A DNA stretch of 64,000 nt from Litorivivens lipolytica (GTDB lineage: Bacteria; Pseudomonadota; Gammaproteobacteria; Pseudomonadales; Spongiibacteraceae): NCBI RefSeq assembly GCF_014191715.1, contig NZ_JACHWY010000001.1:620001-684000 (forward strand), read 5' to 3'. A model generated the notes under the pieces. That model saw nothing but the letters and a program-made list of their open reading frames with translations, had not been told where the DNA came from and searched no databases. How positions within the stretch are numbered: position 1 is the first letter of the stretch; every line of letters starts with the position of its first letter. A program made the position numbers and the translations under genes. This document shows positions 33,514 to 62,466 of this stretch, piece by piece.

Positions 33514-33529
33514 TAGCAAACGCTATGCC
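33514..33529 (-). promoter_or_regulatory. sigma-54 promoter of fliL
   Basis: Read on the minus strand: TGGCATA-N4-TTGCT, with the invariant GG and GC dinucleotides separated by 10 bp. It lies in the 149-bp spacer between fliK and fliL, pointing at fliL. Confidence 0.8.
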
Positions 33530-33597
33530 AGTATTTAACCTTCTGATTTCACTATATTTTTATTGCTCTAAAAGCGAGACGCCAAAATCCTGACGCG

Positions 33598-34839
33598 TCA
33601 GGCGTAGTAATCGACACGGCCCGCTTCGCTACCCGAGAGTTCCGTTATGATGGCGCCACCAGAGTCTGCTTCGGTATCCCCTGATTCGGAGGTTTGTTGA
33701 GGGGTGTTATTCTGATTGGTTTTCGCCTGACTGGAGCGCTCTTCACCAGATTCTGCAAACAGTGCATTGGCATTGAGTTTAAGCTCGTCCACTTTCACGC
33801 CCTGCTGTTCGAGTGCGCTTTGAAGGCGAGGCAGCAAGGTTTCCAGCATTTCGCCGGTATCAGCGTTCTGAGCATGAATTTCGACCTGAGCCGTGTTTTC
33901 GATCATCGTGACACGAATCTGGAGAGCACCCAGTTCAGCAGGGTGTAGTTGCAGATTAGCGCGCTGCGCGCCCTGCCCTGTCATCCATACGACTTTCTCG
34001 GTAAAGGCATCGGCTACCGCCTTCTCGGTAAAGCCCTGAGGGCTTGCCGATTCAAGCACCGGGGTAGCACTACTGGTGCGACTCAGATTCAGCGCTGACA
34101 GGCCTTCCAGGGTCCGGTGTACATTGCCGGTCCCGTCTTCCTGGCGGGTAATCTTTTTGGGAAGCTCCACCGGGAGGGCTGTCTTCAGCGTCTCGCTCGG
34201 TTCAGGCTGAGGTTTTGCGGCCAGATCAGAAACCGCCGTTTGCGATGGATTCAACTCCCGATCCCGCCAAATGGCATTGGACGACTCAGCACTACCCGGT
34301 TTCGGCTCAGCCGGTGACTGGCCTTCAAGTTTTGGCTGTGAGGTAGATCCCTGCTCCTGACTACCGCGCGACATCTGTTCTGACTGTGGACTGTCGGGAA
34401 TACCACCCAATTGGGCGCTGGCTTGTCTTGCAAGAGCGGCCTGCTCCGATGGCAGCGATTGTTGCGCAGTCAGGGCTACACTATGGCCAAAATCTTGTGG
34501 GAGGCCATCGACAACAGACAATTTTTCGGTTGCGACTTGCCGCACTAGCGGCAAGTCTTTGCCGCTATCCCCCTCCGTCACCAATCCGAACGAGGCGTTG
34601 GCAAAAGAGGCCGGGGCCGTTTCCTGTATCGGCTGCACAAGTGCTGTCTCGGTCGCAGTCTGGGCCACGTTAAGGGGCTGATCAGCGCCGTGGAGCTGAC
34701 TCATGATCTTGCCGAAAGCCACACCATCACTGGGATTCGCGCTGGCTGAAAGGGGCAACTGAGAGGGATTTCCTGCCTGCAGAGGCAGCTGCAGCAGCGC
34801 TGCAAGATCACCAAGATTGTTGGATTGGCTAATTTCCAT
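33598..34839 (-). CDS. fliK: Flagellar hook-length control protein FliK
   Basis: 413 residues from ATG (a TTG two codons earlier is possible). A long low-complexity N-terminal ruler region (about 1-270) is rich in Gln, Ser and Pro. The C-terminal Flg_hook domain (about 275-360) has VWMTGQGAQRANLQLHPAELGALQIRVTMIENTAQVEIHAQNADTGEMLETLLPRLQSALEQQGVKVDELKL, the classic substrate-switch core. It interacts with FlhB. A sigma-54 promoter lies upstream. Part of the coding region (34537-34565) carries a phased DNA motif, translated as DSGKDLPLVRQ. Confidence 0.94.
   Translation of the reverse strand: MEISQSNNLGDLAALLQLPLQAGNPSQLPLSASANPSDGVAFGKIMSQLHGADQPLNVAQTATETALVQPIQETAPASFANASFGLVTEGDSGKDLPLVRQVATEKLSVVDGLPQDFGHSVALTAQQSLPSEQAALARQASAQLGGIPDSPQSEQMSRGSQEQGSTSQPKLEGQSPAEPKPGSAESSNAIWRDRELNPSQTAVSDLAAKPQPEPSETLKTALPVELPKKITRQEDGTGNVHRTLEGLSALNLSRTSSATPVLESASPQGFTEKAVADAFTEKVVWMTGQGAQRANLQLHPAELGALQIRVTMIENTAQVEIHAQNADTGEMLETLLPRLQSALEQQGVKVDELKLNANALFAESGEERSSQAKTNQNNTPQQTSESGDTEADSGGAIITELSGSEAGRVDYYA
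34537..34565. promoter_or_regulatory. Candidate flagellar enhancer array (three phased half-sites) inside fliK
   Basis: TTGCCGC (34537-34543), GCGGCAA (34548-34554) and TTGCCGC (34559-34565) alternate in orientation with 4-bp gaps, so half-sites repeat every 11 bp. The same architecture is found between the flgB and flgA promoters. It lies about 340 bp downstream of the likely fliK transcription start. Confidence 0.6.
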
Positions 34840-34914: not shown

Positions 34915-34930
34915 AGCAAATGGCGTGCCA
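34915..34930 (-). promoter_or_regulatory. sigma-54 promoter of fliK
   Basis: Read on the minus strand: TGGCACG-N4-TTGCT, a full match to the -24/-12 consensus. It lies just after the fliJ stop and about 75 bp before fliK. Confidence 0.88.
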
Positions 34931-34936
34931 GACATG

Positions 34937-40465: not shown

Positions 40466-41794
40466 TCAATTTGCGTACTGCGCTTCGCGCAGTCGTTGCA
40501 GTTTGTAGCGCAGCGTGCGCGGACTGATGCCCAGAATGGCCGCAGCTTCTTTTTTGCTGCCACCCTGTCGAATAGCATTCTCGATCTGCCGATGCTCCTG
40601 AGTGCGCATCCAGTCGTTCAAACTGCCGGCGCCTGATGGCTCAACGCACTCCGCCTGAGTGGCAGTTTGAAGCCCAAAACTTTCAAACTGGATATCCTCC
40701 GCATCAATAGTGCGGCGGGACTGGAGAATCAAGGCGCGCTGAATCACGTTGTCGAGCTCGCGCACGTTCCCCGGCCAGTGGTAGTCCTTCAACTTCTGCT
40801 CAGCTGCCACTGACAGGCGGCTGACCTGGTCAGCATCGCGATCGATAGTCACAAAATGTCTGGCCAGCGGAATAATGTCTTCTGGGCGGGCACGCAGTGA
40901 CGGGATAGCGAGAGGGAAAACATTCAAGCGGTAAAACAGGTCTTCCCGAAATTCACCGCGCGCTACGGTCTCTCGCAGATCGCGGTTAGTCGTGGCCAGT
41001 ACACGCACATTCAGACGGATGGTGCGTTTGCCGCCCAGCCGTTCGAGCTCTTTCTCTTGCAAGACGCGCAGCAGCTTCGCCTGCAGCGACAAATCCATCT
41101 CGCTGATTTCATCCAGAAGCAGTGTTCCACCCTGGGCCTGCTCAAATTTGCCGATATGGTTGTTCACAGCACCGGTGTAGGCGCCCTTTTCATAGCCGAA
41201 GAGCATGGCTTCCAGCATATTCTCAGGAATCGCAGCGCAGTTCAGGGCGATAAAGGGTTGATCCGTGCGTGAGGATTGGCTGTGGATATAGCGTGCGAAA
41301 ACTTCCTTGCCGACCCCGCTGGGGCCACTGATCAGGACTGTGGCATCGGTAGCGGCAACCCGAGAAGCCAAGTCGCAGATTTTCAAGGTAGAGGGATCAG
41401 CGGCAATCAGATTATTTGAGGATTCCTCTGGCACATATTCTGCTACCACCTTAACCAGCATGGCTGGATCAATTGGCTTTGACAGAAAATCGGCAGCGCC
41501 GCTCTTTACGGCCTCTACGACCGCATTGACGGTCTGTGTGTCTGCGGTAACCAGCACCGGCACCTGCACTGACAGGCCGCGAATGGCATTGAGAATCTCG
41601 CCCGACTCGTAGAACGGTTTTTCGCAGAGTACCAAGCTGTAACGTGCGCTGTGCAGGGCAGTAAGGGCTTCCTGCTCAGAGTGACCGCAGTCGACTTCAT
41701 AACCTGCATGCAGCAACGCTCGCTTCATCGACGCCGCGGTTGCAGGCGTTGAATCGATGATCAGCAGTCGGGCGTTTCGGGGTTTCAGGCTCAT
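40466..41794 (-). CDS. fleR: FleR/FlrC-type sigma-54 activator with degenerate receiver domain
   Basis: 442 residues: receiver-like domain (about 8-125), AAA+ domain (GPSGVGKE about 157-164, sigma-54-contact GAYTGA 204-209, GGTLLLDEISEM) and a C-terminal Fis-type HTH (GSKKEAAAILGISPRTLRYKLQRLRE). Activates middle flagellar genes with RpoN. The receiver's phospho-acceptor Asp is Glu58 (SLVLCEKPF), and the acidic pair reads Asp14-Ser15, although Lys106 (LSKP) remains. It should not be phosphorylatable by a kinase. The cognate fleS gene, which normally lies between fleQ and fleR, is absent. A perfect sigma-54 promoter lies 39 bp upstream. Confidence 0.93.
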   Translation of the reverse strand: MSLKPRNARLLIIDSTPATAASMKRALLHAGYEVDCGHSEQEALTALHSARYSLVLCEKPFYESGEILNAIRGLSVQVPVLVTADTQTVNAVVEAVKSGAADFLSKPIDPAMLVKVVAEYVPEESSNNLIAADPSTLKICDLASRVAATDATVLISGPSGVGKEVFARYIHSQSSRTDQPFIALNCAAIPENMLEAMLFGYEKGAYTGAVNNHIGKFEQAQGGTLLLDEISEMDLSLQAKLLRVLQEKELERLGGKRTIRLNVRVLATTNRDLRETVARGEFREDLFYRLNVFPLAIPSLRARPEDIIPLARHFVTIDRDADQVSRLSVAAEQKLKDYHWPGNVRELDNVIQRALILQSRRTIDAEDIQFESFGLQTATQAECVEPSGAGSLNDWMRTQEHRQIENAIRQGGSKKEAAAILGISPRTLRYKLQRLREAQYAN

Positions 41795-41832: not shown

Positions 41833-41848
41833 TGCAAACGCCGTGCCA
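41833..41848 (-). promoter_or_regulatory. sigma-54 promoter of fleR-fliEFGHIJ
   Basis: Read on the minus strand: TGGCACG-N4-TTGCA, a perfect -24/-12 match in the 222-bp spacer between fleQ and fleR. FleQ is the expected activator. Confidence 0.9.
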
Positions 41849-41963
41849 TTGCTTTTTATCTTTTTATTTCAGTACCTTACAGAGAGCACAAGTGCCGACG
41901 ACATTTTTTTGACGCCGGTTTATTGGCGGCACTTCTAACAGCAAAAATCTTTTACCCCCAACA

Positions 41964-42016: not shown

Positions 42017-43081
42017 TCAGGTCATTTGCAGCTTCTTCATTTTTTCCGCCAGCGTAGTGCGCTGCAGGCCCAGCAGCTTCGCCGCCTGGGTGACTGTGCC
42101 ATTGGCGCGCTCCAGCGCCTGCACAATAAACTGTTTTTCCAGTGCCTGAATATGTGCTTTCAGGTCGAAGCCCTCTTCCGGCAAATCGAGAACCGGGTCG
42201 GAAGCTTCGTTCTCAAGCACTTCCTCGTCTTCGTCATTGCTATTGCCCAGCAGAAAACTGATTTCCTCTGCCGTTTCCTCACTCGCCAGAGGAGAACCGA
42301 TCGGACAAGGCAAGTCGCGCGCACTGACCAGACGGCCACCGTGAGTAATAGACAGTCGCTCAAGAATGTTTTCCAGCTCCCGAACATTACCTGGCCAGTG
42401 ATAGCCCTGCAGGGCTTCCAGAGCAGTCTTGGTGAAACGCGGTGTCACCATGCCCTTTTCTTTAAAGCGATCGAGAAAATGGGTTACCAGCTCCGGCAGG
42501 TCGGACAGATGCTCGCGCAGTGGCGGAACCGTGATGGGAAAGACATTCAGCCGGTAAAACAGATCGTGACGGAATGTCCCCGCCTCGATCATTGCGCCCA
42601 GATCCCGGTGCGTTGCGGCCAGAATGCGCACGTTGCACTGAATGGTCTGGTTGCTGCCGACGCGCTCAAAACATCGCTCCTGCAACACACGCAGCAGTTT
42701 TACCTGCATGTTGAAGCTCATGTCCCCGATCTCGTCGAGGAACAGCGTACCGCCCTCAGCCATTTCAAAGCGGCCTTTGCGGGCGGTGATTGCGCCGGTA
42801 AACGCCCCCTTCTCATGCCCGAACAGCTCGGATTCGAGCAAGTCGGGCGGAATCGCACCGCAGTTTACGGGCACGAAGGGCTTGTCTTTGCGATTCGAGG
42901 TATTGTGAATGGATCGAGCAACCACTTCCTTGCCGCTGCCAGACTCACCCTGAATAAGCACCAGGGTATCAAACGCGGCTACCTGATCGATGAGTTCGCG
43001 AACACTGCGCTGGGCTTCGGAACGACCCAGCGGACCGCGATCGGCATGAATGTAGGACACCTTGACCGTTGAACCTGCCAT
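42017..43081 (-). CDS. fleQ: FleQ/FlrA-type master flagellar activator lacking the receiver-like domain
   Basis: 354 residues against about 490 for Pseudomonas FleQ. An in-frame stop codon lies two codons before the ATG, so the short N-terminus is real in this sequence. It has only the AAA+ domain (Walker A GESGSGKE 45-52, GAFTGA 92-97, GGTLFLDEIGDM from 110, arginine-rich VPPLREHLSDLPEL) and a C-terminal HTH (GTVTQAAKLLGLQRTTLAEKMKKLQM) that closely matches FleQ. The linker motif LFRS, used by Pseudomonas FleQ to bind c-di-GMP, is replaced by ADRG (about 13-16), keeping one Arg. An acidic segment (NSNDEDEEVLENE) precedes the HTH. Monocistronic, with its own terminator. Confidence 0.9.
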   Translation of the reverse strand: MAGSTVKVSYIHADRGPLGRSEAQRSVRELIDQVAAFDTLVLIQGESGSGKEVVARSIHNTSNRKDKPFVPVNCGAIPPDLLESELFGHEKGAFTGAITARKGRFEMAEGGTLFLDEIGDMSFNMQVKLLRVLQERCFERVGSNQTIQCNVRILAATHRDLGAMIEAGTFRHDLFYRLNVFPITVPPLREHLSDLPELVTHFLDRFKEKGMVTPRFTKTALEALQGYHWPGNVRELENILERLSITHGGRLVSARDLPCPIGSPLASEETAEEISFLLGNSNDEDEEVLENEASDPVLDLPEEGFDLKAHIQALEKQFIVQALERANGTVTQAAKLLGLQRTTLAEKMKKLQMT

Positions 43082-45628: not shown

Positions 45629-45644
45629 TGCAAACCTTGGGCCA
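45629..45644 (-). promoter_or_regulatory. sigma-54-like promoter of fliDST
   Basis: Read on the minus strand: TGGCCCA-N4-TTGCA. GG and GC are correctly spaced (10 bp) and the -12 box is perfect; the -24 box has C where A is usual. It occupies the short flaG-fliD spacer and points at fliD. Confidence 0.65.
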
Positions 45645-45645
45645 A

Positions 45646-46041
45646 TCAAGCGAATTCTTCCACTAAGCTGCCGGTACCCTTGGTAAAGGCGTCTGCAAAA
45701 CGCAGCACAACCTCCGGTGGCAATTGCCGAATTACTTCTCCGCTTTCCTTGTGAATCACCCGGACAACGATGTGCCCGCTGTCTTCATCGACCGAGAACT
45801 CCAGCTCCCGAGCTCTTTCCTGCAGCACCTTGTTCAGGCGCTCAACGGTTTCACTGGACATTTTAAGCTCGGGTGGCGGCGATGCCGATTTACCGCCCTC
45901 GAGGACCACCGCGGCCTGGCCGCTATTGCCTTTCGACACCGGTAAAACCGGCAATGTCTTGCCGCTATCCGGGTTAGGCGAGCTTCTGGTTGCCGCATCC
46001 GCTGTGGCCACGCCCTGACTTTTGTTGACATTGATATCCAT
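45646..46041 (-). CDS. flaG: FlaG-family flagellar protein
   Basis: 131 residues from the third possible ATG, which sits at ideal distance from GAGGTGA (two upstream ATGs are in frame). It has a variable N-terminus and a C-terminal FlaG domain SSETVERLNKVLQERARELEFSVDEDSGHIVVRVIHKESGEVIRQLPPEVVLRFADAF. FlaG proteins influence filament length. It lies between fliC and fliD. The coding region at 45948-45965 carries the GCGGCAA-type DNA motif, read as DSGKTLP in the protein. Confidence 0.88.
   Translation of the reverse strand: MDINVNKSQGVATADAATRSSPNPDSGKTLPVLPVSKGNSGQAAVVLEGGKSASPPPELKMSSETVERLNKVLQERARELEFSVDEDSGHIVVRVIHKESGEVIRQLPPEVVLRFADAFTKGTGSLVEEFA
45926..45965. promoter_or_regulatory. 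Candidate flagellar enhancer sites inside flaG
   Basis: CCGGCAA (45948-45954) and TTGCCGC (45959-45965) form the same inverted pair, with a 4-bp gap, as in the arrays at fliK and flgA/flgB. A partial site TTGCCTT (45926-45932) is in 11-bp phase. It lies about 300 bp upstream of the fliD sigma-54 element. Confidence 0.5.
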
Positions 46042-57468: not shown

Positions 57469-57484
57469 TGCAACAGCCGTGCCA
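57469..57484 (-). promoter_or_regulatory. sigma-54 promoter of the flgB operon
   Basis: Read on the minus strand: TGGCACG-N4-TTGCA, a perfect -24/-12 element about 95 bp before flgB. It supports the downstream ATG as the flgB start. Confidence 0.9.
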
Positions 57485-57556
57485 GTTTACAAACCCCATA
57501 TATTTCAATTAGATAGCGCTACGCGCCAAAATCCCGACTGATGCAGAATTAGGTCA

Positions 57557-57585
57557 GCGGCAAGCCTTTGCCGCCTCAGCGGCAA
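57557..57585. promoter_or_regulatory. Candidate enhancer array (three phased half-sites) between flgB and flgA promoters
   Basis: GCGGCAA (57557-57563), TTGCCGC (57568-57574) and GCGGCAA (57579-57585) alternate with 4-bp gaps, i.e. an 11-bp period. It lies in non-coding DNA between two divergent sigma-54 promoters, about 60-110 bp upstream of each, the usual place for an RpoN-activator site. Confidence 0.7.
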
Positions 57586-57646
57586 CTTTCTGTTCACCGC
57601 TTTGTGCTTCTCTTTATAAGTTTCCAGGATGCGAGTCGTTTAAGGC

Positions 57647-57662
57647 TGGCACGCTAATTGCT
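57647..57662 (+). promoter_or_regulatory. sigma-54 promoter of flgA
   Basis: TGGCACG-N4-TTGCT is a perfect -24/-12 match, about 70 bp before the flgA start and divergent from the flgB promoter. Confidence 0.9.
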
Positions 57663-57733
57663 GCTACCGTGATGAGACGACAGATTTTTGACATCACCTA
57701 GAAAGCCCTGATGTTTGTAAAGAGGAGAAAGGC

Positions 57734-59433: not shown

Positions 59434-62400
59434 TTGGCTCAGATACAGCCCCCGAACAAAACAACAAATTACCTCCTGCCTGTGCGCGTTATTGCACTCG
59501 CACTCGCCTATTACCTTCTAGCGAAAATCGGACTGATTTTCGCTATTCCTCCCGGCTATGCTACGGCAATCTGGCCTCCCTCCGGGCTGGCTCTGGCCTC
59601 GGTGATGCTGTGGGGTTGGCCGATGGCTTTCGGTGTCTTGCTCGGATCTTTTCTGGCCAATGCAGATATTGGTAACCCTGCATCGCTGCTTATCCCTTTT
59701 TTAATTGCCAGCGGCTCCGCGCTACAGGCCGTCGTTGGGGCTCGGTTGGTATTGGCGAGAAGTGATCCCCCCTGGACCCTGAATACACTTAAACAGGCGG
59801 GTGTGCTGATTGTGGTCGGCGGCCCAATTGCCTCGCTAGTCTCTGCCTCTGTGGGGAATGCGACCCTGTACCTTTTTGGTGGGCTGGCCCCCAGCGGCAT
59901 TCCTGCAAACTGGCTAAACTGGTGGCTTGGCGATTCTCTCGGCGTATTGGTGTTCGCACCGATCTTGCTGGTTGTCATGCAAAAAACCGATCTGATTAGT
60001 ATGCGCCGGAAGCTGCTGATTGCCATTCCAGCCCTGTCGATGTTTCTGTTCCTCACCCTCGTTTATATCTCTGGCAAACAGCAGATTGAATCCGAGCTGA
60101 GATCCAATCTGGCGGTCAGAAGCCAGCTTGGCTACAACGCTCTCAGCGATCACTTGACCAATAAAATAAATCTTCTCAACTATATAGCTGGCCTATTTAA
60201 TGTTTCAGGTAAGGTTTCGAGAGAAGAGTTCCACGACTTTTATAAGGCGATCACCGCGTCCATGTCGTCGCCCCCCACCCTGACCTGGGCGCCGAGGGTG
60301 GCCCACGACGATAAATCAGACATCATCGCGAAAGCCCGAGCGGAAGGGCTTGAGGATTACGAGATTTTTGAAGCTTCCCCGGAGGGCCCCCGCCCCGTCG
60401 AACCGCGCCCCTTTTATCAACCCTTGTTCTATATAGAACCGCACGATCGGCACCCCAATGCCTTTGGTTTTGATCTACGCTCTGAATCGAGACGGCGCGA
60501 GGCGATAGATCGAGCCTTTTCGACGAACACCACCACCTCAGCAGGCCCCCTGAAAATCGTTGGTTCGGAGCGCCCGACGCTAATTTATGTGCTGGTATCG
60601 CCCCTCACGCCCCTCAGTGCCGGAAACGCAGTACTGAGCATTGTCTGGATAGAGCAAATGGTGGCGCCATTGGCGGAGTTGGCGATGCAGTCCGAGGTCG
60701 GCTACCGACTGACCGACCGGCGCAGCGGCACAGTGCTGTTTACCTCGGAATCAGACATACCACCGAGCGGCTTTAGCCAAACCAAGGACCTGAAATATCT
60801 GGATTACGACCTGTCACTGGAAAGCTGGCTCGCAGCCCAATCGATCTCAACCCAAATGACTGCGCGGCTTGCGCCTCTGGTTTTCGGGGGGTTCATCATT
60901 ATCGGCGCCGTCAGCCTTCTGATTATCAGCTCGACAGGCGCACATCAATCGGCGCAATTACTGGTGCACTACAAAACCCGCGAGCTCAGGCAGGAGCGTG
61001 AGTTTCTGGAGAGCATGATCGATAATCTGCCGATGCTGCTCTATATCAAGGATGCCGCGACCCGCCGCTTTCTCCGCGCCAACCATGCCAGCCTTGCCGC
61101 AGTAAAAGATGATGCCCCACAAATGATCGGCCGAACCCAGGAGGAGGTTTTCGGCGAGCGCAGTCTGGATACTGACAACCGCAGCGACGACAAGGTCGTC
61201 TTTGAGGGGGAGATTGTTAACGAAGAAGCGTACATGGAGCTCGGCGGCGAAATCCGCTGGTTTCAAAACACCAAGGTACCGGTGCTTGACCCGGAAACTC
61301 GCGAGGTGAAATACATCCTCGGCCTGGCAGAAGACATTACCCACAAGAAACTGTTTGAGAGGGAGATCAAGGACAGTCGCCAGCGGGTAAGCCGCATTCT
61401 GGAAAATGTGGGCGAAGGTATCTACGGCCTCGATGAGAGCGGCAATATAACCTTTGTCAATCCAGCCGCAACTGATCTACTGGGGTTTTCGGAAGAAGCG
61501 TTACTGGGTCAGAACGCCCACGAGCTATTTCATCACCATCATCAGGACGGCCGCGAGTTCGACGCGAAGGACTCCCCTATTTATGACACGCTGACCCGCG
61601 GTGAAACCCACCGGGTGGATGATCAGGTATTCTGGCATCGCGATGGCAGCGCACTGCCGGTTGAGTATCTAAGCACCGCCATTGTAGAAAACGAAAAGGT
61701 GATTGGTGCGGTGGTCGTATTCAGCGATATTTCCAAGCGCCTGGTCATGGACCGACTGCAGCGCGAGCAGACGGAGCGAATCCAGCAGATCAACGAGGAC
61801 CTCGAGGAGTTCTCCTACGTCGCCAGCCACGATTTACAGGAGCCCCTACGCACGCTGATCTGCTTTTGCGAGTTTCTGGAAGACGACCTTGGGCCCGACC
61901 TTCCCGACGATGCGGCTACTGATCTCGAGTATATCAAGCAAGCTGCACGGCGTATGACCAAGCTGATCAATGATATGCTTGATTACTCTCGAGCAGGCAG
62001 TTCCGAGCTGGAACTGGCACCGCAGGATCTCAATGACTGCGTAGATCAGATTCAACACGATCTTCTGGCAATGATTCGTGACCATGACGCAGAAATCACC
62101 GTCGATCCCCTACCCACTGTCCTCGGCGACCGCAATGGGCTGCTGCGGGTTTTTCAGAACCTGATTCAAAACGCGATCCGCTATCGCTCGGAACGCAAAC
62201 CGCAAATCAGGGTCTATGAACACAGTAACGATGGCCAAATGACCACCATCGCGGTGAAGGACAACGGCATCGGTATCGAAGCGCAATATCTGGAACAGAT
62301 CTTCGGTGCCTTCCGCCGGGTGCAGAGTTCCGACGATACTGAGGGCTCGGGCATCGGTCTGGCAGTGGTCAAGAAACTGGTGGAGCGGCATCGAGGGGCC

Positions 62401-62466
62401 GTTAGCGTCGACTCTGAGCCAGGGGTCGGAAGCACTTTTTACGTTACATTAAAACTCAACTACTAA
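59434..62466 (+). CDS. MASE1-CHASE-PAS-PAS sensor histidine kinase (orphan)
   Basis: 1010 residues from TTG (AGGCGG upstream; no ATG is available near the domain start). MASE1 integral membrane sensor about 15-215 (eight hydrophobic segments, with GYATAIWPPSGLALA). Another membrane helix precedes a periplasmic CHASE domain (about 240-470, LRSNLAVRSQLGYNALSDHLTNKINLLNYIAGLFNVS). Two PAS domains follow (about 530-650, 655-780), then a HisKA domain with His799 in FSYVASHDLQEPLRTL, the bacteriophytochrome-like H-box, and an HATPase with NLIQNAIRY, DNGIGIE and GSGIGLAVV. No receiver domain or response regulator gene is adjacent. The ligand is unknown. Confidence 0.88.
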   Translation: MAQIQPPNKTTNYLLPVRVIALALAYYLLAKIGLIFAIPPGYATAIWPPSGLALASVMLWGWPMAFGVLLGSFLANADIGNPASLLIPFLIASGSALQAVVGARLVLARSDPPWTLNTLKQAGVLIVVGGPIASLVSASVGNATLYLFGGLAPSGIPANWLNWWLGDSLGVLVFAPILLVVMQKTDLISMRRKLLIAIPALSMFLFLTLVYISGKQQIESELRSNLAVRSQLGYNALSDHLTNKINLLNYIAGLFNVSGKVSREEFHDFYKAITASMSSPPTLTWAPRVAHDDKSDIIAKARAEGLEDYEIFEASPEGPRPVEPRPFYQPLFYIEPHDRHPNAFGFDLRSESRRREAIDRAFSTNTTTSAGPLKIVGSERPTLIYVLVSPLTPLSAGNAVLSIVWIEQMVAPLAELAMQSEVGYRLTDRRSGTVLFTSESDIPPSGFSQTKDLKYLDYDLSLESWLAAQSISTQMTARLAPLVFGGFIIIGAVSLLIISSTGAHQSAQLLVHYKTRELRQEREFLESMIDNLPMLLYIKDAATRRFLRANHASLAAVKDDAPQMIGRTQEEVFGERSLDTDNRSDDKVVFEGEIVNEEAYMELGGEIRWFQNTKVPVLDPETREVKYILGLAEDITHKKLFEREIKDSRQRVSRILENVGEGIYGLDESGNITFVNPAATDLLGFSEEALLGQNAHELFHHHHQDGREFDAKDSPIYDTLTRGETHRVDDQVFWHRDGSALPVEYLSTAIVENEKVIGAVVVFSDISKRLVMDRLQREQTERIQQINEDLEEFSYVASHDLQEPLRTLICFCEFLEDDLGPDLPDDAATDLEYIKQAARRMTKLINDMLDYSRAGSSELELAPQDLNDCVDQIQHDLLAMIRDHDAEITVDPLPTVLGDRNGLLRVFQNLIQNAIRYRSERKPQIRVYEHSNDGQMTTIAVKDNGIGIEAQYLEQIFGAFRRVQSSDDTEGSGIGLAVVKKLVERHRGAVSVDSEPGVGSTFYVTLKLNY

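Follow-up and report, generated by a model that had tools for sequence, protein, structure and literature searches.

The 64-kb stretch of DNA analysed here, which we call the window, holds three copies of the palindrome CGGCAA-N4-TTGCCG: one between flgB and flgA and two within the coding sequences of fliK and flaG. Their sequence, promoter setting and recurrence in relatives make it likely that these palindrome arrays are enhancers for class III sigma-54 promoters, bound by FleR, an activator of the FlrC/FlbD type.

Palindromes and sigma-54 promoters in the window

None of the putative enhancer sites is assigned to a strand. The array between flgB and flgA (57557..57585), identified from its sequence and its conservation in this and other families, consists of a strong palindrome, GCGGCAAGCCTTTGCCGC (57557-57574), and a second half-site, GCGGCAA (57579-57585), 22 bp on. 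In the putative intragenic array of fliK (34537..34565), the palindrome GCGGCAAGTCTTTGCCGC (34548-34565) is accompanied by the half-site TTGCCGC (34537-34543). This array is identified from sequence, conservation and a synonymous-codon test, and sequence, family conservation and the same test also mark a putative intragenic enhancer palindrome in flaG, CGGCAATGTCTTGCCGC (45949..45965). All three copies had been named in an earlier, sequence-only reading; they are exact and lie where it placed them, and the 11-bp spacing that it gave for the three half-sites is correct.

There is no further exact CGGCAA-N4-TTGCCG in the window. A whole-genome pattern search found four exact copies in 3.49 Mb, three of them within the flagellar cluster. 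The fourth lies at the 3' end of the rsgA coding sequence and has no flagellar link, so the many copies far from flagellar genes for which the sequence-only reading had proposed a search come down to one in four. Among Spongiibacteraceae relatives, exact copies outside the flagellar genes number about two per genome, mostly at coding places. We considered these recurrent copies and the one in rsgA as functional sites and judged them incidental coding matches. With the family's ~2 non-flagellar copies per genome as background, the probability of three copies in 64 kb is ~8e-6; with this genome's own single non-flagellar copy it is ~1e-6. The excess beyond chance claimed earlier thus holds, and only the exact copies are special. 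Allowing two mismatches gives nine matches in the window against 5.65 expected, which is ordinary, and a two-mismatch scan of the genome was likewise uninformative. Because of this ordinary count, the argument is built on the exact copies together with their conservation.

Strong sigma-54 elements, identified by sequence, are located upstream of flgB (CTGGCACGGCTGTTGCA, 57469..57485, minus strand), flgA (CTGGCACGCTAATTGCT, 57646..57662, plus strand), fliK (CTGGCACGCCATTTGCT, 34915..34931, minus strand, the best in the window), fleR (41833-41849, minus strand), fliL (33515-33531, minus strand) and fliD (TTGGCCCAAGGTTTGCA, 45629..45645, minus strand). The sequence-only reading had described the sigma-54 setting of the palindromes. 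The elements that it placed at flgB, flgA and fliD are all present, but it left the strong fliK element unmentioned. Each of the two divergent -24 elements has its GG 83 bp from the centre of the flgB-flgA dimer site, and ~313 bp separate the flaG copy from the fliD element, which it precedes. Since fliK has its own sigma-54 promoter ~370 bp upstream of the fliK copy, this copy is probably a downstream enhancer.

The class III (FlrC) genes of Vibrio cholerae include the rod and hook genes, the fliK operon, fliD and flaG, and the FlrC sites there, typically located beyond the transcription start, work as true enhancers (PMC6504787). The palindromes described here similarly lie at or near sigma-54 elements that serve the flgB, fliK and fliD units. 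A position downstream of the start is seen both in the fliK copy and in a fliK leader site of Spongiibacter pelagi. The likeness to V. cholerae is one of position and gene set, with promoters of the same tier. Unlike the FlrC sites, the fliK copy is intragenic, ~350 bp into the transcript, and the flaG copy would serve the next gene. A gene for a large histidine kinase (MASE1, CHASE and PAS domains; 59434-62466, plus strand) adjoins the flgA-flgM end of the flagellar cluster.

Conservation and helical phasing

We compared 21 Spongiibacteraceae genomes, including Zhongshania and Spongiibacter, which are not independent because of their kinship. The palindrome recurs in most of them in the flgB-flgA gap and in the 5' portions of fliK and flaG, and not every genome carries all three sites. 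The flgB-flgA palindrome is exact or has one mismatch in 12 of the 21. Together with its presence in several other families, this bears out the conservation of the non-coding copy, which the sequence-only reading had proposed checking. In the clade of G004, G005, G007, G008, G009, G012 and G016, the intergenic palindrome has eroded to half-sites 11 bp apart, and the flaG copy persists in several members. Neither a fliK nor a flaG site was present within the stretches read of G015 and G018.

In 11 genomes the strong site is accompanied by a second, perfect CGGCAA at a distance of 21, 22 or 33 bp, and doubled fliK palindromes in the family are 21 bp apart. These distances of two or three helical turns support the earlier claim that the sites are phased on one face of the helix. 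In some relatives (the flgB-flgA gap of loci L034 and L033, and L019), a further full or near-full dimer site lies exactly 33 bp away rather than 21-22 bp, and G020 has half-sites at +33 and +54.

The wider comparison covered 20 genomes from other families of the order, in which each locus was read. Between flgB and flgA, G060, G086 and G081 have a strong site (scores 23-25), and G073 and G085 a weaker one. Exact fliK coding sites occur in G073, G066 and G105, and near matches in G071, G096, G040 and G064. The flaG coding site was seen in G096 only, among the 20 genomes, while G080 and G039 have a non-coding site ~70 bp before fliD. Every clear fliK copy from these families uses TTG for Leu, compared with a TTG share of 38% among the Leu-before-Pro codons there, and residue 2 of the encoded peptide varies between Lys, Asn and Met.

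Probable DNA sites within coding sequence

Read in frame, the site is GGC AAN NNN TTG CCG, which encodes G(K/N)xLP. Across the family, FliK and FlaG share the pattern GxxLP, in many cases as two copies with a period of seven residues, and the coding copies are always in the same single frame. We scored the codons with a matrix derived from the non-coding flgB-flgA sites only and recoded each fliK and flaG gene synonymously 500 times. For 14 of the 34 genes, no more than 1.2% of the recodings fitted the matrix as well as the native codons (fraction ≤0.012). Of the control gene segments (n = 214), 4% reached ≤0.01; the test is mildly liberal, with 10% of controls at ≤0.05, and its G014 (S. pelagi) fliK entry spans the leader site. 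The freedom of synonymous codons, a check put forward in the sequence-only reading, is thus restricted in fliK and flaG relative to control genes. The codon use of fliK and flaG indicates that both copies are kept as DNA sites.

In S. pelagi, GxxLP is absent from FliK and FlaG at these places. Its fliK leader instead carries a non-coding site, AGCGACAAAATCTTGCCGCT (L112:13380-13395), 39 bp beyond the point where the sigma-54 element starts, and its flaG-fliD gap carries another, AGCGACAATTTTTTGCCGTT (L112:2076-2091, the fliD site). This species has lost the peptide and kept the sites in non-coding DNA, in agreement with the earlier preference for DNA over peptide. By its sequence, this is a natural relocation of the putative enhancer, in which the site tracks the promoter and not the protein.

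Conversely, the fliK and flaG copies could be a GxxLP peptide motif that both exported proteins require, with the DNA match arising from favoured codons and only the flgB-flgA copy acting as a DNA site. The single constant frame and the heptad spacing of the peptide copies (GKDLPLVGKDLPL, GQPLPLIGQPLP) favour this, as does the retention of the peptide with other codons, such as GGA AAA CTG CTG CCG in G008 and GGA AAA ATG GTG CCG in G007. We nevertheless regard it as improbable, given that the synonymous codons favour a matrix built from non-coding sites, that TTG is used in every clear copy from other families, and that S. pelagi has DNA sites at non-coding positions without the peptide. Residue 2 can also be K, N, Q, E or M, so the constant part is largely DNA. 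The self-complementary sequence could alternatively form an RNA hairpin (7-bp stem, 4-base loop) acting, for example, in mRNA stability or attenuation. This is very unlikely: both sigma-54 elements lie downstream of the flgB-flgA copy, so neither of their transcripts includes it, and the 21/22/33-bp phasing and the position relative to promoters are properties of DNA. Chance could in principle place three copies here, as the exact copies at unrelated, mostly coding places in each genome illustrate, yet with P ~1e-5 in the window, and with relatives carrying the site at matching positions, it is the least credible explanation of all.

For the DNA sites, the sequence-only reading had suggested that the shared peptide is the shadow of the site. 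The constrained codons and the S. pelagi case uphold this in part, but FliK GxxLP persists with a poor DNA match in G004, G007, G008, G009, G016 and G020. The shadow reading is therefore likely, yet not absolute. This persistence may reflect either decay of the site or a secondary use of the peptide, and the peptide itself may have a weaker role. A more elaborate reading, which we hold only tentatively and think rather doubtful, is that the same bases in the same frame carry two messages, a FleR enhancer and a functional heptad peptide, GxxLPxxGxxLP, common to both exported proteins, FliK and FlaG. The peptide would have started as a by-product of the enhancer and later been kept for itself, and this would account for lineages in which it survives although the DNA match has not.

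FleR and the FleQ-like activator

The proposed binder is encoded by fleR (40466..41794, minus strand), a sigma-54 activator with a degenerate receiver, an AAA+ domain and a Fis-type HTH (GISPRTLRYKLQRLRE). Its best NCBIfam match is FlbD, at a score below the model cut-off. The recognition helix is conserved across the family, in a comparison of the HTH that also drew on distant loci from a FliG scan. The phospho-acceptor position of the receiver is Glu (SLVLCEKPF) rather than Asp, and no kinase partner gene, fleS, lies beside fleR at this locus. FleR frames in Zhongshania and Spongiibacter, at ~316-374 aa, are too short to include a receiver (loci L090-L115). In these features FleR appears to depart from activators of the FleR/FlrC class, in which a partner kinase (FleS/FlrB) exerts control through a receiver Asp.

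We propose that each half-site CGGCAA, with a 4-bp spacer and its inverted partner, would form a FleR dimer site, and that paired sites would constitute the enhancer. FleR dimers would bind the paired sites through the Fis-type HTH and form the AAA+ ring there, and the bound FleR would contact the sigma-54 polymerase via DNA looping. Its predicted reach would be ~83 bp from upstream at flgB and flgA, ~370 bp from downstream inside fliK, and ~313 bp from upstream, within flaG, for fliD. FliK and FlaG would be forced to carry G(K/N)xLP because the site is read in their frame, and they could tolerate the imposed peptide because those parts of the proteins vary greatly between relatives.

Some features of known systems support this assignment. 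The homologue of FlbD in Desulfovibrio vulgaris (DVU1063) binds GGCAxxxxTGCC and the Caulobacter crescentus FlbD motif is CCCGGCAxxxxxTGCCGGG (PMC3333781). The present palindrome shares with that DVU1063 motif and the Caulobacter ftr sites a GGCA half-site with an inverted partner and a flagellar sigma-54 regulon, and FleR shares with FlbD and DVU1063 an atypical receiver that may not need phosphorylation (PMC3333781). The GGCA-TGCC spacing is 6 bp here against the published 5 bp of FlbD and 4 bp of DVU1063, which counts against a FleR enhancer; these proteins come from different phyla or classes. Intragenic copies are not described for the ftr and DVU1063 sites in the source text consulted. 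The orthologous FleR of Pseudomonas aeruginosa is reported to recognise the flgBCDE, flgFGHIJKL and fliC promoters (PMC8335546). The present FleR differs in having no adjacent fleS and a degenerate or missing receiver. We found no published FleR consensus.

The window also encodes a FleQ-like sigma-54 activator (42017..43081, minus strand), which appears without its N-terminal domain here and throughout the family. A sister palindrome, CGHCAAN4TTGDCG, is present with one mismatch upstream of the sigma-54 promoters of fleR (CGTCAAAAAAATGTCG, 41899..41914) and fliL (CGTCAGGATTTTGGCG, 33580..33595), neither assigned to a strand, and also occurs in the flgA leader (57678-57693). Exact copies are found at the fliL place in eight family genomes, and the sister palindrome is kept near the fliL, fleR and flgA promoters in the family (loci L093, L098, L102, L106 and L115). 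In Pseudomonas, fliL and fleSR are FleQ targets (PMC6120874). The sister palindrome is probably a FleQ box, and the FleQ-like protein its probable binder. The simplest scheme, we infer, would be that a single half-site base distinguishes the sites of FleR from those of the FleQ-like protein.

The arrays might instead be bound by the FleQ-like activator or another regulator. FleQ ChIP-seq peaks in Pseudomonas fluorescens are indeed assigned to flgB, fliK, flaG and fliD as well (PMC6120874), and the P. aeruginosa FleQ box, GTCaNTAAAtTGAC, resembles the present palindrome in its short inverted half-sites and 4-bp spacer. However, the FleQ half-sites are GTCAA and the present ones CGGCAA, which sets our palindrome apart from a FleQ box. 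The sister palindrome, without G at half-site position 3, fits the FleQ consensus better and, in these genomes, marks fliL, fleR and flgA, while GGCA is the half-site of FlbD-type proteins. A binder other than FleR is thus unlikely, if somewhat less so than the peptide motif. FleR, which the sequence-only reading had also named, remains the putative binder and is well supported by circumstance.

FlrC/FlbD-type enhancers are already known, and the present finding is new in degree, in combining conserved, putative enhancers deep inside genes with a FleR whose receiver is degenerate or missing. It offers a concrete, predicted recognition code for FleR, one half-site base apart from the FleQ-like box. 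The FleR lineage seems to have kept its putative sites although its receiver has degenerated or been lost. The coding copies make a clear bacterial case, supported by the natural relocation, of likely enhancers in coding DNA whose conservation extends across families and which shape the peptide encoded there.
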